Position numbers and translations under genes: made by a program
Notes under the pieces: model-generated
Databases searched by the model: none
What the model saw: only the letters and a program-made list of their open reading frames with translations
What the model was told of the DNA's origin: nothing
Source: a virus
IMG/VR virus record: IMGVR_UViG_3300032116_001468
Coordinates: 1-21,871 of that record
Reading direction: 5' to 3' (one strand)
Length of the DNA: 21,871 nucleotides
Shown: positions 4,400 to 20,923 of the stretch, in pieces
Layout of the letters: each line of letters starts with the position of its first letter
Numbering within the stretch: the first letter of the stretch is position 1

Positions 4400-4846
4400 A
4401 TGGCATACGGCGATGATATGCAATGTAATAAATGCAAGGTAACTAAGCCGAAGTCTGAGTTCTTTAAAGAGTCAAAATTTACTCGTGGTTATAGATACTC
4501 CTGTAAAGATTGCGAAAAACCTATGCGAGAAATTTATAAGAGTAAACCAGAAAATAAGATACGAGCTACTAAAACTCGTAGAAGTTGGGTAAGAAAAACT
4601 AAGTATAATTTTCCTCAAGAATTGTATGACGAAAGATTAAACGATCAAGGTGGAGTCTGTGCAATATGTGGCACAGATAATCCTGGTGGGCGTGGACAAT
4701 TCCACGCTGATCATAACCACAGTACTAATGAACCAAGAGGTGTGCTTTGCCACAATTGCAATGTAGCACTTGGTAATTTTAAAGATAATCCAGAGTTACT
4801 AGAAAAAGCAATTGTGTATCTCAATAAATATTCGGAGGTTGAATAG
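4400..4846 (+). CDS. HNH homing-type endonuclease 2, endonuclease VII family
   Basis: A 148-residue DNA endonuclease of the same family as the product at 227-655. It has a zinc knuckle (C9-x2-C12, C35-x2-C38), the HNH core (C87-x2-C90, catalytic DHNH at 104-107) and C117-x2-C120-N121. AAGGAG precedes the ATG, and the stop overlaps the GTG start of the tail gene by one base. The first seven residues, MAYGDDM, mirror the first seven of that downstream tail protein, MAYSDDI, and most nucleotide differences there are at third positions. This suggests the nuclease acquired its start region from the gene it now precedes. Family firm; mobile origin inferred. Confidence 0.9.
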   Translation: MAYGDDMQCNKCKVTKPKSEFFKESKFTRGYRYSCKDCEKPMREIYKSKPENKIRATKTRRSWVRKTKYNFPQELYDERLNDQGGVCAICGTDNPGGRGQFHADHNHSTNEPRGVLCHNCNVALGNFKDNPELLEKAIVYLNKYSEVE

Positions 4847-10837: not shown

Positions 10838-11095
10838 ATGCGGGGGCCTCGTAGTTTTGAGAACCCCTCTTGTGCAGAGATCTCAGTAGATCTCTTCTTT
10901 CCCGAAGTAGGAGATTCATTATCTGTTATAAGACAACTTAAAAATGTCTGCAAGTTATGTCCCCACCAGCAAGAATGTGCAGAGTGGGGCATACAAAATG
11001 AGAGATACGGAGTATGGGGCGGTCTATCAGAAAAAGATCGTAGAGCAATCCGTAGACAAAGAAACATTATTATAAGAGAAGAAGAAATTGCTTAA
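10838..11095 (+). CDS. WhiB-family transcriptional regulator
   Basis: An 85-residue protein with the WhiB 4Fe-4S ligands C12, C38-x2-C41-x5-C47, the GVWGG turn at 58-62 and a basic C-terminus (KDRRAIRRQR). WhiB proteins are confined to actinobacteria and their phages; they bind the main sigma factor and can activate or repress transcription. This is the strongest clue to host phylum. Phage copies can act as antagonists of the host WhiB proteins. The ATG lies three bases after the previous stop, with no clear ribosome binding site. Confidence 0.93.
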   Translation: MRGPRSFENPSCAEISVDLFFPEVGDSLSVIRQLKNVCKLCPHQQECAEWGIQNERYGVWGGLSEKDRRAIRRQRNIIIREEEIA

Positions 11096-15859: not shown

Positions 15860-16495
15860 TTATATCAGATCTAAAATCTGTGTGCCAATTTCTTTAGTAT
15901 AAATAGGTGGTATAGCTTCAACTAACTCACCCCATATCATCCAATCAATTCCCATTGCTTCTCTTGCTTGTTCAATACTCTTAGCAGTATGACCGCCGTT
16001 AGGTATCTCATCTCTCATAGAACCATAGATACCAACTGGTTTGCCTTGTTCCTTATGATTACAAACAGATCCTTTTAATTGTAGATTGCTCTCAAATAAT
16101 CTGTGCCTTCTAACCTTTAATCCAAAGGATGAACCACACATCTGTATTGGGTTAATAAGTGGTGAGCCTGGTACATTCTCAATAACATAAGGCCTACCAC
16201 TTGCTATCAAAGCCTCTCTAGTTTGCGGTATTAAATCTATCTTATCTGTTGATTTACCTTGAGCATTGCGTAGGTGTTGAGTAATGCTATGCGTTTGGCA
16301 GGGTGGACTAGCAGCTATTACATCAAAGGATTTAAGGAACTCCATATCCTTCATAAGTTCTAAGCAGTCAGCCTGAATAAACTTAAAGGGGTAGCGTTTC
16401 TGTTTCTTGATATCTACCCCTACTACCTCAAAGCCTGCTAACTGGTAGCCTTTACTAGCACCACCAGCTTTGCAGTATAGGTCAAGTAGTTTCAA
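15860..16495 (-). CDS. C5-cytosine DNA methyltransferase, short phage type
   Basis: A 211-residue enzyme from TTG 16495, directly after the preceding stop. Motif I is DLYCKAGGASKGY (5-17), motif IV ASPPCQ with catalytic C66, motif VI E106-N-V and motif VIII VRRHRLFE (128-135). Motif X-like IPPIYTKEIGTQI closes the protein. It is about two-thirds the length of bacterial Dcm enzymes, with a small recognition region. It methylates DNA at carbon 5 of cytosine, probably against host restriction. Last gene of the leftward operon. Confidence 0.9.
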   Translation of the reverse strand: MKLLDLYCKAGGASKGYQLAGFEVVGVDIKKQKRYPFKFIQADCLELMKDMEFLKSFDVIAASPPCQTHSITQHLRNAQGKSTDKIDLIPQTREALIASGRPYVIENVPGSPLINPIQMCGSSFGLKVRRHRLFESNLQLKGSVCNHKEQGKPVGIYGSMRDEIPNGGHTAKSIEQAREAMGIDWMIWGELVEAIPPIYTKEIGTQILDLI

Positions 16496-16918
16496 TTAGT
16501 AGTAGTTGTTTCTAAGGAAGAACTTATACGCCTTGCAAGGAGAGCCGTAGCGAGAGTCAATGTATTTAAGACCTCGTAGGATTTGATATTCGCTTCGGTG
16601 ATCTTTCTCTCTAAGGAGCTGAGCAATTCCGTAAGCACTTGATCCTCTTTGGTTCTTTGCGTAGTTATCAAACCTGCTCTCACGGGTCCAAAGGGACTTA
16701 AGGCAGACCCACTCTCTCCCTCTCCAGTCCCAACCAGCCGAAGCGTACTCTTGTGCGAGCTTTCTATTACGATCCTTTTCATCTTTTGTTGCCTTCCTAT
16801 TCTCTATAACTCCATTTGGTATTTGTTTTACTATTGGTGTTGATAACTTACCTTCTGCGAAAACGACTAGACTTAGTGTTGCCAGCGATATCAAGCCATT
16901 TCTTACCCATATCTTCAT
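16496..16918 (-). CDS. secreted lytic transglycosylase-like (SLT) protein
   Basis: A 140-residue protein with an N-terminal signal or anchor (KIWVRNGLISLATLSLVVFA) and a lysozyme-like transglycosylase domain from about 65: LWTRESRFDNYA with catalytic E80, SSAYGIAQLL at 93-102, and GLKYIDSRYGSPCKAYKF. C72 and C128 could form a disulphide outside the cell. Such enzymes cut peptidoglycan glycan strands. It is far from the lysis cassette and in the presumed early operon. The signal-peptide part overlaps the upstream gene by 71 bases in another frame. Confidence 0.85.
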   Translation of the reverse strand: MKIWVRNGLISLATLSLVVFAEGKLSTPIVKQIPNGVIENRKATKDEKDRNRKLAQEYASAGWDWRGREWVCLKSLWTRESRFDNYAKNQRGSSAYGIAQLLREKDHRSEYQILRGLKYIDSRYGSPCKAYKFFLRNNYY

Positions 16919-17069
16919 CAGAGTTCATCTCCTCCTCTAAGTAGGTGCGATAAACATTTGGGTAATCTCTACTCAAACGAGCCAACGCCCTATCCCTTGC
17001 TCTACGATAGTTTCTTTTACGAACGGCTTGTGCCTTCGCTACTTCTGTTCTTCTCTCTACAGTTCCCAT
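16848..17069 (-). CDS. small basic protein, unknown
   Basis: A 73-residue Arg-rich protein: RKRNYRRARDRALARLSRDY is followed by an acidic EEEMNSDEDMGKKWLDIAG and a basic tail. Start ATG 17069 is preferred because it overlaps the upstream stop (TAATG) and has GGAG close by; ATG 17078 adds three residues. Similar Arg-rich small proteins occur in actinophages; a nucleic-acid contact is plausible. No domain recognised. Confidence 0.7.
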   Translation of the reverse strand: MGTVERRTEVAKAQAVRKRNYRRARDRALARLSRDYPNVYRTYLEEEMNSDEDMGKKWLDIAGNTKSSRFRRR

Positions 17070-17332
17070 TAACTCCATCTATCTACGCAATTAGCAATAG
17101 TAGCAAGGACAATAGGCGTAATCTCTATGAACTCCATAGTTAATTTAGCCTCTTCCTCTGTCGTTTCATACTGTCCCACCCAAACCTTACTGTCTGGAGG
17201 GCTACTACGATACCATTTAATAGCCTCTAGGACATCTTCTCCGCCCCATATAGCTATCCCTTGAGCATCTGATACCTCATAGAATACAACATTAACCTTG
17301 CCCCTTCTGGGCAGTTGTAATACATCTTTCAT
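17069..17332 (-). CDS. 87-residue protein, unknown
   Basis: Start overlaps the upstream stop (ATGA). It is mixed alpha/beta: KVNVVFYEVSDAQGIAIWGG, a helix EDVLEAIKWYRSS, KVWVGQYET, then a C-terminal helix. No family recognised. Retained in the chain of overlapping genes. Confidence 0.65.
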   Translation of the reverse strand: MKDVLQLPRRGKVNVVFYEVSDAQGIAIWGGEDVLEAIKWYRSSPPDSKVWVGQYETTEEEAKLTMEFIEITPIVLATIANCVDRWS

Positions 17333-17499
17333 TTGTTCGCCATCTCTCTCTTTACTCTCTCGTTCTCACAATTTACACAGGTATCTGACTTATACTCTGC
17401 CCTATCAAACTCAACAGCGCAGGTATCGCAGTTAATTAACTCCTCATAGCCTCCATTATAGGCGTAGTCATCTCCGAATAGGTAGCGTGGCTCGCTCAT
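17329..17499 (-). CDS. zinc-ribbon microprotein, 56 residues
   Basis: Start ATG 17499 is chosen: it has AGGAG five bases upstream and overlaps the previous stop (ATGA); a longer frame from 17544 lacks these. Two CxxC pairs (INCDTCAVEF and DTCVNCENERVKR) form a zinc ribbon. The N-terminus is Tyr/Gly-rich. One of six small CxxC or CxC proteins encoded in a row. Confidence 0.75.
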   Translation of the reverse strand: MSEPRYLFGDDYAYNGGYEELINCDTCAVEFDRAEYKSDTCVNCENERVKREMANK

Positions 17500-17654
17500 A
17501 TACTCTCCTCTATAACTACCTTGTTGATTAGACAAGCTCGGCATATAGCGTGGGTTAGATCGCTATACCATTTACCAACTACTTGATTGCAGTAATCGCA
17601 GGTAATGGTGTCGCCCTCTCCCTCAGTGAACTCATACCCTTTCATCTCACTCAT
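17496..17654 (-). CDS. zinc-ribbon microprotein, 52 residues
   Basis: Start and stop overlap both neighbours by four bases (ATGA). C19-x2-C22 (ITCDYCNQVV) and C38-x2-C41 (AICRACLINK) with H35 between resemble a small treble-clef or ribbon finger. The N-terminus is acidic and Gly-rich. Unknown function. Confidence 0.72.
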   Translation of the reverse strand: MSEMKGYEFTEGEGDTITCDYCNQVVGKWYSDLTHAICRACLINKVVIEESI

Positions 17655-17785
17655 ATAGAGTTCTCTTTCTCGCGTTCAGTTGCCTGATCCATCAAGCAAT
17701 TATCGCAGGCATATCCTCCGTCATAGTTGTTATACCAATCAGGGTTTGCAATCTCCCACCCACAAAACTTGCAGATAGATTTCAT
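17651..17785 (-). CDS. zinc-ribbon microprotein, 44 residues
   Basis: Two CxxC pairs: C5-x2-C8 (SICKFCGWEI) and C28-x2-C31 (YACDNCLMDQ), separated by an Asn/Tyr/Gly-rich loop. The tail is charged (ATEREKENSI). Overlaps both neighbours by four bases (ATGA). GGAGG-like AAGGAG lies upstream. No family recognised. Confidence 0.72.
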   Translation of the reverse strand: MKSICKFCGWEIANPDWYNNYDGGYACDNCLMDQATEREKENSI

Positions 17786-17922
17786 TTACTTAACTCCTTC
17801 CTCTCTTTTGTTAGTTGTATTAGTCTTTCAGCTGAACTTGTTATCTCTCTCATATAGCTTAGGCAATCACACTCGCTTATTGGTACTAGGTGATCGCCAC
17901 ATATTGCTGGTGTATAGGCCAT
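17782..17922 (-). CDS. 46-residue Cys-containing microprotein
   Basis: C8, H11, C18 and C20 in the first half could bind one metal (PAICGDHLVPISECDCL). A charged helix follows (MREITSSAERLIQLTKERKE). Start overlaps the upstream stop by one base (TAATG), with GGGGAGAG before it. Unknown function. Confidence 0.65.
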   Translation of the reverse strand: MAYTPAICGDHLVPISECDCLSYMREITSSAERLIQLTKERKELSK

Positions 17923-18005
17923 TACTCTCCCCTTTCATAGCACTTATAGCAGGTATATCCTGATACATCTTGATCTAAGTTATCGCAATTGCAATCTTTA
18001 CTCAT
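17922..18005 (-). CDS. 27-residue Cys-rich microprotein
   Basis: C5-x-C7 and C19-x2-C22 in only 27 residues (SKDCNCDNLDQ and YTCYKCYERGE) make a minimal zinc-binding unit. Start overlaps the upstream stop (TAATG) and the stop overlaps the next start in the same way. Chance frames rarely show both features. Confidence 0.62.
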   Translation of the reverse strand: MSKDCNCDNLDQDVSGYTCYKCYERGE

Positions 18006-18271
18006 TACTTTCCCTCCCAAGTGAGGTCATCAAGGTACCATTGAAAACTCATACCGCCGTATTCATCTTGGTTCCAATTTACTACCCAATCAGGTGTTTT
18101 ATTAGGCACCTGCCAGTAGATTTCATAGCCATTAAACTCATCCCAAAATAGAGTGAGTTCATAACTGTTGCCCTCATACTCAAAGCGGATATATCTTTTC
18201 CAAGCGGTATCCTCGTGGCTTGAACCCTTAATCACTATCTCACTTTCTAAGTGTTGCTTCATCTTACTCAT
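18005..18271 (-). CDS. 88-residue acidic, Trp-rich protein
   Basis: Start ATG 18271 is chosen over 18319 because it overlaps the upstream stop (ATGA) and follows GGAGAGGGAG. It is beta-rich with seven Trp (KRYIRFEYEGNSYELTLFWD, then YEIYWQVPNKTPDWVVNWN). No family recognised. It may be a small binding protein. Confidence 0.68.
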   Translation of the reverse strand: MSKMKQHLESEIVIKGSSHEDTAWKRYIRFEYEGNSYELTLFWDEFNGYEIYWQVPNKTPDWVVNWNQDEYGGMSFQWYLDDLTWEGK

Positions 18272-18402
18272 TTCGCTAACTCCCTCTCCATTAGTTGTTG
18301 ATAGTGGTCGTTCCACCATAACTTAGCGTTATCACTTATCTCAGCACTCCACCACAAGTTAGTGAGGGCTTCGTTTATCTCTTTTAATTCTTTACTCGCC
18401 AT
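18268..18402 (-). CDS. 44-residue Trp-rich microprotein
   Basis: Starts at ATG 18402 (a second ATG at 18405 is in frame), preceded by GAGGAGGAG. Two WW pairs (TNLWWSAE and AKLWWNDHY) lie in a likely amphipathic helix. It overlaps the upstream gene by 11 bases and the next by four. Unknown. Confidence 0.6.
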   Translation of the reverse strand: MASKELKEINEALTNLWWSAEISDNAKLWWNDHYQQLMERELAK

Positions 18403-18466
18403 CATTCTCCTCCTCGTGTTCGTAGTATTCTCCGCAAAAATCACATTGGATTAACAGATCATTCAT
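18392..18466 (-). CDS. 24-residue CxxC microprotein
   Basis: A minimal frame with C8-x2-C11 (IQCDFCGEYYEHEEE) and H17. Start overlaps the upstream stop (TAATG), and AAGGAGG lies upstream. It could bind one metal with H17 and acidic residues or act as a dimer. Its GAGGAGGAG also serves as ribosome binding site of the next gene. Confidence 0.5.
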   Translation of the reverse strand: MNDLLIQCDFCGEYYEHEEENDGE

Positions 18467-18561
18467 TACTCTTCCTCCTTATCGTGCTCTAAACTATGGG
18501 TAAGAGCTTCACTCAGAGTTGCAAAGTATTCAAAACAGATATCGCACACTCTTGTAGTCAT
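18466..18561 (-). CDS. single C2H2 zinc-finger microprotein, 31 residues
   Basis: C6-x2-C9-x12-H22-x3-H26 is exactly the spacing of a classical C2H2 finger, with Phe13 at the conserved hydrophobic position and Leu20 near the second. The tail is acidic (EHDKEEE). Such fingers are common in eukaryotes and rare in bacteria and phages. Start overlaps the upstream stop (TAATG) and GGGAG lies upstream. It could bind nucleic acid or protein. Confidence 0.62.
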   Translation of the reverse strand: MTTRVCDICFEYFATLSEALTHSLEHDKEEE

Positions 18562-19013
18562 TACTCTCCCTCCTTTTCATCTTTAAGATCTTCCTTTACT
18601 ATTTGCCAATTCCCTGCCTCGTGCCATAACTCATCAAGGGATAAAGTAAAGGCATATTTGAACCACTTATCCGCCCCCAATTTATTGATTAGATCTTGCT
18701 CTTCCTGTTCCATCTCATCATAAAGATCCCAAAATCTCATCACTAGATCTTTATAGTCATTTAGAATTGAATTAGTTTTTTCTATAACTTCATTTCTTAT
18801 ATTGTTTTTTTCTTCAAAGCGCATTGACTCAAGGCTCTTGATGTTGAAATTTAATTCTTCACCATCAAACTTAAGTAAGGCGTAAGAGATTGCGTTCTCT
18901 GCAGTATCAAAATCACCCTGAAAGAAATCGCCCCCTCTCTCCTGTATTTCCCACTTATCAATGCCACCAGGTGAGCAGGAATACTCAACCTCGTAGATGT
19001 CTAGATCTTTCAT
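18561..19013 (-). CDS. 150-residue acidic helical protein, unknown
   Basis: AGGAGA precedes ATG 19013. The N-terminus is beta-like (YEVEYSCSPGGIDKWEIQER), then an acidic helical part with FWDLYDEMEQEEQDLINKLG and a C-terminal Trp helix. Strongly acidic overall. First gene of the continuous overlapping chain; the promoter should lie between 19014 and 19158. No family recognised. Confidence 0.7.
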   Translation of the reverse strand: MKDLDIYEVEYSCSPGGIDKWEIQERGGDFFQGDFDTAENAISYALLKFDGEELNFNIKSLESMRFEEKNNIRNEVIEKTNSILNDYKDLVMRFWDLYDEMEQEEQDLINKLGADKWFKYAFTLSLDELWHEAGNWQIVKEDLKDEKEGE

Positions 19014-19083
19014 TTATTCTCCTATCAGTAATTAAGGTAGAGCGTTCGCTCTCCCTCTCTCCCACTTGTAAGTAGGATACCAC

Positions 19084-19112
19084 GCCATCATCCCCCATAT
19101 GCAGATGATGGC
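19084..19112. repeat. 9-bp inverted repeat, candidate operator
   Basis: GCCATCATC (19084-19092) and GATGATGGC (19104-19112) are a perfect dyad with an 11-base spacer, in the leader of the microprotein operon. No T-run follows on either strand, so a terminator is unlikely. Confidence 0.5.
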
Positions 19113-19144
19113 ATAGAAAACCACTTAAAAATAGCTGACCGATA

Positions 19145-19158: not shown

Positions 19159-19305
19159 CTATCCGCAAACCTCCAAACTTCCTATGCAATACCCGCCTCC
19201 ATTCCACCATAAGCGGGAGCTAATTAAGTAAAGGGCGACAAGTGTGGAGATCCAGAAGACAATTCTCACGCCTCTCCTTACCTTGTAATAAGTCTTAGAT
19301 CTCAT
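19159..19305 (-). CDS. 48-residue single-pass membrane protein
   Basis: From ATG 19305: a basic N-terminus (RSKTYYKVRRGVR), one membrane segment (IVFWISTLVALYLISS), then WW and a Gly/Cys-containing tail. It overlaps the upstream gene by 11 bases. No clear ribosome binding site, so coupling is assumed. Longer in-frame starts would overlap the neighbour fully. Confidence 0.5.
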   Translation of the reverse strand: MRSKTYYKVRRGVRIVFWISTLVALYLISSRLWWNGGGYCIGSLEVCG

Positions 19306-20143: not shown

Positions 20144-20241
20144 TTGTATCTCCTATCAATATGAGGGCGGGATTGCTCTCATTGGTGTAATGGTAAGGGA
20201 TGATCCCCCATCTATGCAACTACATTTTGAGAGTGTCCCAA

Positions 20242-20309
20242 AGCTCGGACATATGGTATATAGCTGACATTTACTATCAAATGGAACAGCTCGGACAAAT
20301 CGGACAGCT
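20242..20309. promoter_or_regulatory. left operator cluster (AGCTCGGACA repeats)
   Basis: AGCTCGGACA occurs identically at 20242-20251 and 20288-20297, and TCGGACA again at 20300-20306, nine bases after the previous one. The two AGCT-flanked sites straddle the leftward promoter. Confidence 0.6.
20253..20280 (-). promoter_or_regulatory. leftward promoter
   Basis: On the minus strand TTGATA (20280-20275), 16 bases, TACCAT (20258-20253). It faces the operon starting at 20143 and lies between two TCGGACA sites. Confidence 0.45.
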
Positions 20310-20451
20310 GAAATTGAATTAGATTTGGATCGGATCGGGATCTAAATCTGCAATTCAAAACAGTTTATTAAATTAGATAGGGCTGAGAGTGTGCCCGATG
20401 GGGAGCAAGCCTTCACACCTTTACCAATACAGCACAGAGCGGGCAGGGGGT

Positions 20452-20486
20452 GGGGGTCAGCACAAAATAGGACAAAACGGACCCCC
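20452..20486. repeat. GC-rich inverted repeat
   Basis: GGGGGTC (20452-20458) and GACCCCC (20480-20486), 21-base spacer, next to a G-rich run. The spacer includes AGGACAAAACGGAC, a degenerate relative of the TCGGACA site. Confidence 0.4.
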
Positions 20487-20556
20487 GTATGTTTAATCCG
20501 CGCTTGTTATATGTTATGTACCCCAAATAAATATATTTCCTAAAGTGTAATCAGCT

Positions 20557-20572
20557 AGTCCGTAATGTCCGA
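20557..20572. promoter_or_regulatory. right operator (AGTCCG and TGTCCGA)
   Basis: AGTCCG at 20557-20562 and TGTCCGA at 20566-20572, nearly the same paired spacing as at 20291-20306 but inverted, and also preceded by AGCT. It abuts the rightward -35 box. Confidence 0.55.
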
Positions 20573-20573
20573 T

Positions 20574-20601
20574 TTGATATACTTTATTTGTGAGTTATAC
20601 C
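20574..20601 (+). promoter_or_regulatory. rightward promoter
   Basis: TTGATA (20574-20579), 16 bases, TATACC (20596-20601). The -35 box is identical to that of the leftward promoter and lies one base from a TGTCCGA site. Confidence 0.4.
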
Positions 20602-20671
20602 ACATTTATAAAGATTTTTTGTGTAAAAACGGGAAATCACCTATTTTTCTCGGCTTATATATAGTAGGGGA

Positions 20672-20697
20672 GTAAAACGGGGTGTGATGAGTTTTAC
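20672..20697. repeat. hairpin GTAAAAC/GTTTTAC
   Basis: GTAAAAC (20672-20678) pairs with GTTTTAC (20691-20697) over a 12-base loop. First element of a hairpin-dense block. Confidence 0.5.
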
Positions 20698-20715
20698 GAC
20701 CAACATCGCTACGGC

Positions 20716-20754
20716 AAAGCCTCCGCGATGCCCCCTAAGGGCGAGCGAGGCTTT
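20716..20754. repeat. compound hairpin AAAGCCTC/GAGGCTTT
   Basis: AAAGCCTC (20716-20723) pairs with GAGGCTTT (20747-20754), enclosing GC/GC and GCCC/GGGC pairs around CCTAA. Strong enough to be a structured RNA or a recognition site for replication or packaging proteins; not followed by a T-run. Confidence 0.55.
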
Positions 20755-20880
20755 ACCCCTCACTTCGCTGTAGCTCGTTCGGGAGCGTAACGTTCTAGTG
20801 AAGCGAACCGAACAGCACACACACACTTCGCGGCAGGTGTAATAGATTGATCGCTCCACTATCAATTTTCCTCCCCACTA

Positions 20881-20889
20881 TGATATAGT
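20881..20889 (+). promoter_or_regulatory. extended -10 promoter for the terminase unit
   Basis: TGA-TATAGT is a TGn-extended -10 box. It lies 34 bases before the ATG at 20924, which has AAGGAG upstream. No good -35 box. Confidence 0.45.
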
Positions 20890-20902
20890 TTTTACGGCGC
20901 AC

Positions 20903-20911
20903 TTATCCACA
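20903..20911 (+). other. DnaA-box-like sequence
   Basis: TTATCCACA matches the classical DnaA box TTATnCACA exactly. Only one exact copy was noticed in the region, so an origin is not established. Confidence 0.3.
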
Positions 20912-20923
20912 AGGAGTTAAACA

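Follow-up and report, generated by a model that had tools for sequence, protein, structure and literature searches.

The window analysed here, the whole stretch of 21,871 nucleotides, is a 21.9-kb IMG/VR phage genome fragment. Structural and replication genes are on the plus strand, up to about 15.55 kb, and a minus-strand block running in the opposite direction spans 20143 to 15860. Within this block, nine overlapping genes of 24-88 codons occupy 17329-18561 on the minus strand. A first-pass annotation had listed eight genes of 24-88 residues; their size, strand and region are as it described, and their number is nine. Its overlaps of 1, 4 or 11 bases hold for all ten junctions. In order the overlaps are 1, 1, 11, 4, 1, 1, 4, 4, 4 and 4 bases, counting the joins to a 150-aa gene upstream and an 87-aa gene downstream that are part of the same coupled chain. 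A purine-rich, Shine-Dalgarno-like stretch precedes the starts and lies within the 3' end of the preceding gene. The features, from the upstream end, are:

19159-19305, minus strand: 48-aa microprotein just upstream of the leader, predicted from its sequence to be a single-pass membrane protein
19013-19134, minus strand: structured RNA leader; long two-part hairpin, short hairpin and Shine-Dalgarno, reaching to the first gene's start codon
18561-19013, minus strand: 150-aa first operon gene; relatives in loci L037 and L038
18466-18561, minus strand: 31-aa single C2H2-type zinc finger, C-x2-C-x12-H-x3-H
18392-18466, minus strand: 24-aa CxxC microprotein; three distinct sequences, both Cys kept
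18268-18402, minus strand: 44-aa microprotein without zinc motif; 9 distinct sequences
18005-18271, minus strand: 88-aa acidic, aromatic-rich protein without zinc motif; 38 distinct sequences
17922-18005, minus strand: 27-aa microprotein with CxC and CxxC; 6 distinct sequences, 4 of 4 Cys invariant
17782-17922, minus strand: 46-aa zinc-knuckle and helix protein; ligands C8, H11, C18 and C20; 66 distinct sequences
17651-17785, minus strand: 44-aa two-CxxC microprotein, treble-clef-like in its structural model; 74 distinct sequences, four Cys invariant
17496-17654, minus strand: 52-aa two-CxxC microprotein with an invariant His; C, C, H, C and C unchanged across 16 distinct sequences
17329-17499, minus strand: 56-aa two-CxxC microprotein; 61 distinct sequences, conserved N-terminal MSEPRYL.GD motif
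17069-17332, minus strand: 87-aa conserved downstream anchor gene; 37 viral contigs
16848-17069, minus strand: 73-aa basic protein, second anchor gene; adjoins the 87-aa gene in 30 loci
16496-16918, minus strand: 140-aa lytic transglycosylase-like protein (NCBIfam AggPromo_Cterm, E 1e-15); downstream limit of the conserved part

The 48-aa microprotein, MRSKTYY...WWNGGGYCIGSLEVCG, has homologues in 71 loci by tblastn and is absent both from the calls of the custom gene finder and from the first-pass list. The 150-aa gene also stands directly behind the leader in the related loci L037 and L176. The 73-aa and 140-aa genes overlap by 71 bases (16848-16918), which is unusually long within this operon, and the true start of the 140-aa gene may be further in than annotated. 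A 96-aa open frame lies within the transglycosylase gene in a different frame (16492-16782, minus strand). Its C-terminal end resembles a zinc-knuckle-fused ORF in locus L018 (9426-9578), and it is a possible overlapping gene. The 780 bases that separate the minus-strand block from the following plus-strand gene (20144-20923) contain no convincing genes and probably hold the operon promoter; a consensus promoter scan gave fewer sites than in shuffles and no clear consensus site in this interval. Two HNH-type endonuclease-like genes, recognized by inspection among the structural genes (227-655 and 4400-4846, plus strand), are possibly homing genes.

Selection on the nine frames

Relatives were collected by a search with the 87-aa gene, which returned 37 viral contigs, and profiles of the 46-, 44- and 56-aa families added more to give a total of 106 non-redundant related viral loci. 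The loci were fetched partly with the zinc families themselves, and IMG/VR contigs are fragments. The gene finder was custom-made and favours short overlaps; overlap counts in relatives are biased because it rewards 1- and 4-base overlaps, and family counts depend on the linkage threshold. Phage records gave no match in a DNA-level search or in tblastn with the 87-aa and one 44-aa protein, and the 87-aa family had no match in GTDB (one genome per bacterial or archaeal species). A lone GTDB match for the 44-aa family covered 13 residues and was rejected as chance.

In the annotated frame, pN/pS was 0.11 for the 27-aa gene (6 distinct sequences), 0.18 for the 31-aa gene (codon alignment of 3 sequences), 0.20 for the 44-aa gene at 18268-18402 (9 distinct sequences), 0.23 for the 24-aa gene (codon alignment of 3 distinct sequences), 0.30 for the 52-aa gene (16 distinct sequences), 0.35 for the 46-aa gene, 0.38 for both the 44-aa gene at 17651-17785 (74 distinct sequences) and the 56-aa gene (61 distinct sequences), and 0.40 for the 88-aa gene (38 distinct sequences). 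Controls used the same sites shifted by one or two bases, and 17 of the 18 gave values of 0.9-2.1, with most at about 1.1. The remaining control was one shifted frame of the 24-aa gene, with a pN/pS of 0.5. The conservation of Cys ligands in the two largest C4 families (61-74 distinct sequences) was 1.0 (invariant), and 0.98 in one column, compared with a mean of 0.63-0.69 for the non-ligand columns. The first-pass annotation had looked to related phages for the same frames and to each frame for purifying selection. Homologues are present among the 106 related viral loci, purifying selection acts on every frame (pN/pS 0.11-0.40), and conservation is highest at the Cys positions, so neither outcome that would have counted against the genes was obtained. 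These results establish that all nine frames are real genes under purifying selection in the annotated frame. The 24-aa ORF is the weakest case among the nine and, with three sequences, retains some residual doubt.

The genes are very short, and none has a database family match at curated cut-offs, as expected if the frames were chance ORFs or translated leaders without a functional protein. Codon-level selection in the annotated frame and Cys positions that are essentially invariant over many sequences leave this reading with a negligible probability, and each frame is conserved across loci with different neighbours.

Metal sites and folds

CxxC or CxC motifs occur in seven of the nine genes and are missing from the 44-aa (18268-18402) and 88-aa genes. 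The nine proteins hold 11 C-x(1,2)-C pairs; shuffling residues inside each protein gave 2.75 on average, and none of 5000 shuffles reached the observed number. The first-pass annotation had counted six genes with such motifs; the varied spacing that it described is present, in seven genes. Its picture of a whole operon of zinc proteins fails on two of the nine genes and on the flanking 150-, 87- and 73-aa genes, all of which lack the motifs. A complete and conserved four-ligand site within fewer than 70 aa is found in the 31-, 27-, 46-, 44- (17651-17785), 52- and 56-aa proteins. The 24-aa protein has two certain Cys and falls short of a complete four-ligand site.

The 46-aa family follows the pattern C-x2-[H/C]-x(4-7)-C-x-[C/H]. 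At its two variable ligand positions, 50 of the 66 distinct sequences have H..C, 16 have C..H and 0 are mixed. This swap of His and Cys in step is expected of ligands sharing one metal ion and argues for a metal site in the family. We infer that the metal bound by the microproteins is zinc. Among purified Haloferax CxxC microproteins, zinc was present in only 9 of 14 (PMC11241148), so some operon microproteins may bind another metal or none.

The AlphaFold2 model of the 46-aa protein predicts a knuckle followed by a 25-residue helix (mean pLDDT 89), and a fold search with it gave no PDB match. For the 44-aa protein at 17651-17785 the model, of moderate confidence (pLDDT 70), predicts a treble-clef-like order of knuckle, hairpin and then a helix from the second CxxC. 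It had no significant structural match; insignificant ones were to zinc domains, including YacG and the ClpX zinc-binding domain. All 5 homologues of the 31-aa finger keep its Cys and His ligands; two carry the finger fused to another domain, and in one the His spacing changes from x3 to x4. Its profile matches PRDM9 fingers with an E of 1e-5 that is summed over repeated fingers, and the protein scores 16.8 bits against Pfam zf-C2H2_4, below the cut-off of 27. The 31-aa protein thus appears C2H2-like by pattern and lies outside Pfam membership. The first-pass annotation had stated that the proteins are not copies of one protein, and this stands for most pairs. The exception is weak profile similarity among the 44-, 52- and 56-aa proteins (hhalign probability 54-68% for two of three pairs), which may share a remote fold; hhalign of the 46-aa family against these three families detected no similarity. 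A single linkage family uniting the 44- and 56-aa proteins was discarded as a chaining artefact, and profile assignment was used instead. Searches of PHROGs, Pfam and NCBIfam with the microproteins gave sub-threshold matches only, none to a protein of known function. The best weak leads linked the 24-aa protein to Lar restriction alleviation (E 0.05), the 52-aa protein to Yippee and BIR, and the 52-aa profile to ZFAT.

The RNA leader and the variable cassette

The leader was detected through a motif common to gaps within the cassettes, and 19 copies were aligned. Its fold consists of a 21-pair hairpin with an internal loop and a 5-pair hairpin, followed by the Shine-Dalgarno. The 122-nt copy at 19013-19134 has a fold z-score of -6.0 against shuffles and a covariance model score of 112.9 bits (E about 1e-22), being itself among the 19 model-building copies. 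The unfitted alignment has two-sided changes in 16 of 26 pairs and 48 double-change cells, compared with 12 in shuffled and 3-12 in slid alignments. When 50 distinct copies were fitted, compensatory changes appeared in 20 of 26 pairs, 97.3% of cells were paired, and there were 164 double changes compared with 53 shuffled and 10-29 slid, in cells that count sequences, not events. Rfam contained no match to the leader at gathering score, nor at E up to 5. These results show that the leader is a structured RNA with a fold supported by covariation, and that it is a structured RNA family absent from Rfam.

The covariance model places the leader in about 73 of 105 loci (E up to 1e-5). A leader-derived DNA pattern retrieved only members of this phage group from IMG/VR, and in relatives of about 40 kb the matches are inside the cassette only. 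The 3' end is at most 8 nt from the start codon of a coupled run in 48 of the 50 copies examined, and the 5' end is usually at the stop codon of the preceding gene. Runs behind the leader have a median of about 8 genes and begin with 26 different first-gene families. In 107 locus pairs the leader is at least 85% identical and the first gene is different; the leader is constant while the gene behind it changes. In phage T7 early mRNA, intercistronic processing hairpins are RNase III sites. The leader resembles them in form, placing a long hairpin with an internal loop between small-gene blocks, followed by an open Shine-Dalgarno. An integron gene cassette, in contrast to these multi-gene runs, has just one gene or two for each folded attC site, together with core sites and an integrase.

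By pattern, 451 of 1526 small genes in the 106 loci are zinc-type and fall into 79 small families, a prevalence biased towards families that served as search queries. Among the 36-37 loci fetched via the non-zinc 87-aa gene only, 159 of 414 upstream genes within 3.5 kb are zinc-type (42 families); 105 of these have two knuckles and 54 have one knuckle with further Cys/His. The C2H2 finger is fused in relatives to a domain of roughly 75 aa, and the CGDxL module is joined there either to helical domains or to a second zinc module. The nine families form 20 presence patterns in the 62 loci with enough upstream sequence, and all nine are together in 1 of the 62, a contig near-identical to the window. 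Gene order, for which relatives were to be searched according to the first-pass annotation, is conserved across these loci in 607 of 638 pairwise comparisons. The members of several gene pairs tend not to occur together (for 88 aa and 46 aa the odds ratio is 0.10), and the 46- and 44-aa genes co-occur in 47 of the 62 loci. The 46-, 44- and 56-aa families are the three most widespread and are present in most relatives, a prevalence as compatible with an essential role in common as with an accessory one. In the relatives of about 40 kb, the cassette is the only substantial opposite-strand small-gene block, one relative also having a single opposite-strand gene, and it holds 3-5 zinc genes compared with 0-3 per block elsewhere. 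Median gene lengths in four fetched cassette blocks are 52-73 aa. These data identify the nine genes as part of a variable microgene cassette.

Host and possible role of the operon

Among phage records, OX376640 and OX376641 come closest for the DnaB-like helicase and the tail protein (43-44% identity); they are LanE43-AprE7 (L217) and LanE43-AprF5 (L218). These are cultured 'Ca. Planktophila' phages on strain LanE-43, and the small-gene block goes without discussion in the part of the isolation report that was consulted (PMC10202952). Both have the genome layout of the window and an opposite-strand block of small genes, and positions 25578-25718 of LanE43-AprF5 encode a protein homologous to the 56-aa one (E 3e-9). 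They differ in that one of six searched zinc families is present at a significant E-value, and a covariance model search of the two genomes found no leader copy. The two records are without gene annotation, and several unlisted zinc-type microgenes are present, in L218 for example at 24032-24163, 25372-25479 and 25578-25718. A WhiB-like reading made by inspection at 10838-11095 of the window recurs in 8 of 13 related contigs and, again by inspection, inside the equivalent block of LanE43-AprF5; NCBIfam gave no match for it at E 0.01. Because of this reading, and because the nearest records are Planktophila phages with the same layout, the host is likely a member of Ca. Nanopelagicales.

The host-takeover module of Bacillus phage SPO1 has 26 mostly small early genes, and known takeover regions of this sort are characterized by clusters of small genes whose products are directed at the host (PMC6873191). 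The operon likewise packs small, mostly orphan genes densely into one region, and its many genes of unassigned family lie outside the structural and replication modules. We place it with the takeover modules as a kind and not in any named protein family. By analogy, each operon product may act on a different host process. The SPO1 module differs in having several operons, known early promoters and measured host effects, its genes are not described as zinc proteins, and no homology to the operon was found, as judged by the 87-aa and one 44-aa protein, which had no phage-record match. One-domain zinc-finger mu-proteins are found in haloarchaea (PMC6562870, PMC10716476, PMC11241148), and the haloviruses His2 and HF1-like viruses encode many small CxxC proteins (PMC7221443, PMC7230728). 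In His2, the products of the earliest genes are small proteins that are basic, have CxxC features, or both (PMC7221443). The haloarchaeal and haloviral proteins are like those of the operon in being shorter than 70 aa with one CxxC-type metal site and in being numerous in viruses. They belong to archaea and their viruses and have mostly C(P)xCG motifs, whereas the operon combines a bacterial host, overlapping coupled genes and mixed ligand patterns (C4, C3H, C2H2 and CxC).

We consider the operon to be probably a toolkit for host takeover or counter-defence in a lytic freshwater actinophage, with a constant expression platform and exchangeable cargo. This reading is favoured because the nine frames are conserved and selected with essentially invariant ligand Cys, because His and Cys swap in step in the 46-aa family, and because zinc-type genes are abundant in related cassettes and relatives carry zinc modules joined to different domains. 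It is favoured further because gene content varies freely at conserved order, the leader is constant before differing first genes, the GTDB searches with the 87-aa and 44-aa families gave no homologue apart from the chance match, and the operon resembles the SPO1 takeover region and the earliest genes of His2. In the proposed mechanism, the structured leader would supply a folded 5' region and a stable, open ribosome-binding site, and start-stop overlaps would couple translation from gene to gene and carry ribosomes through the run. Bound zinc would replace a hydrophobic core and allow chains of 24-56 aa to fold, in treble-clef-like, C2H2 and knuckle-plus-helix types. Each microprotein would most likely bind a host protein or nucleic acid alone. 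Phages would exchange microproteins by recombination and keep the leader and the downstream anchor genes. Expression time, metal, leader action and host targets are what we infer in this scheme; early expression is compatible with the operon's placement on a strand of its own, apart from structural and replication genes, and with the WhiB-type reading in the cultured relative's operon.

A classical C2H2 finger is most often a nucleic-acid binder, and a WhiB-like reading lies in the equivalent block of LanE43-AprF5 (by inspection). The microproteins could on these grounds mainly regulate the phage's own genes, as small zinc proteins that bind DNA or RNA and act in transcription timing, packaging or replication, in the manner of the Ogr/Delta or AFV1p06 type. 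This is possible but unlikely, as core regulators are seldom gained and lost so freely among close relatives, the proteins are acidic and not basic (by inspection), and 79 zinc-type families exceed the needs of one regulatory circuit. Zinc itself could be the object if the operon buffered or sequestered it, or shielded the phage from metal stress, with proteins that have no specific partners. The very many unrelated zinc sites in one operon fit this, as does the rise of host znuABC zinc uptake during His2 infection (PMC7221443). Strongly conserved non-ligand residues such as the 56-aa N-terminal motif are unnecessary for buffering, however, two of the nine genes have no site, and the sites are typical one-zinc sites, not metallothionein-like Cys clusters, which makes buffering very improbable.

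The first-pass annotation had suggested a set of host-directed binders or a multi-subunit complex. Coupled translation would give matched amounts of subunits, and both the conserved order and the frequent pairing of the 46- and 44-aa genes are as expected of one complex. The genes are nevertheless gained and lost independently, with all nine united in a single near-identical contig, 20 presence patterns and pairs that avoid each other, so an obligate nine-part complex is unlikely, and we assign a low probability to any reading of the proteins as subunits of one complex. A smaller complex of the 46-, 44- and 56-aa proteins may exist. What survives of the suggestion is a selected, mostly zinc-type set in one coupled operon, for which host-directed binding appears the likeliest role.

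Ca. Nanopelagicales are among the most abundant lake bacteria, and the ways in which their phages gain control of the host are, to our knowledge, poorly understood. The operon provides a defined, selected microprotein set, many members of which are below the length limits of usual gene finding, and the cultured LanE43-AprE7 and LanE43-AprF5 on LanE-43 are a bridge to experiments on the idea of a takeover or counter-defence toolkit. Bulk reliance on metal-folded microproteins, noted in haloviruses, is now seen in a bacterial system, and about 80 small families become candidate host binders. Tentatively, the leader might serve both as a constant translation platform and as a recombination landing site, so that zinc microproteins from a large common pool could be exchanged precisely at its 3' edge. 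If so, it would be a new structured RNA class with one to a few copies per cassette, and the phage would keep an evolvable array of single-domain, metal-folded host effectors.
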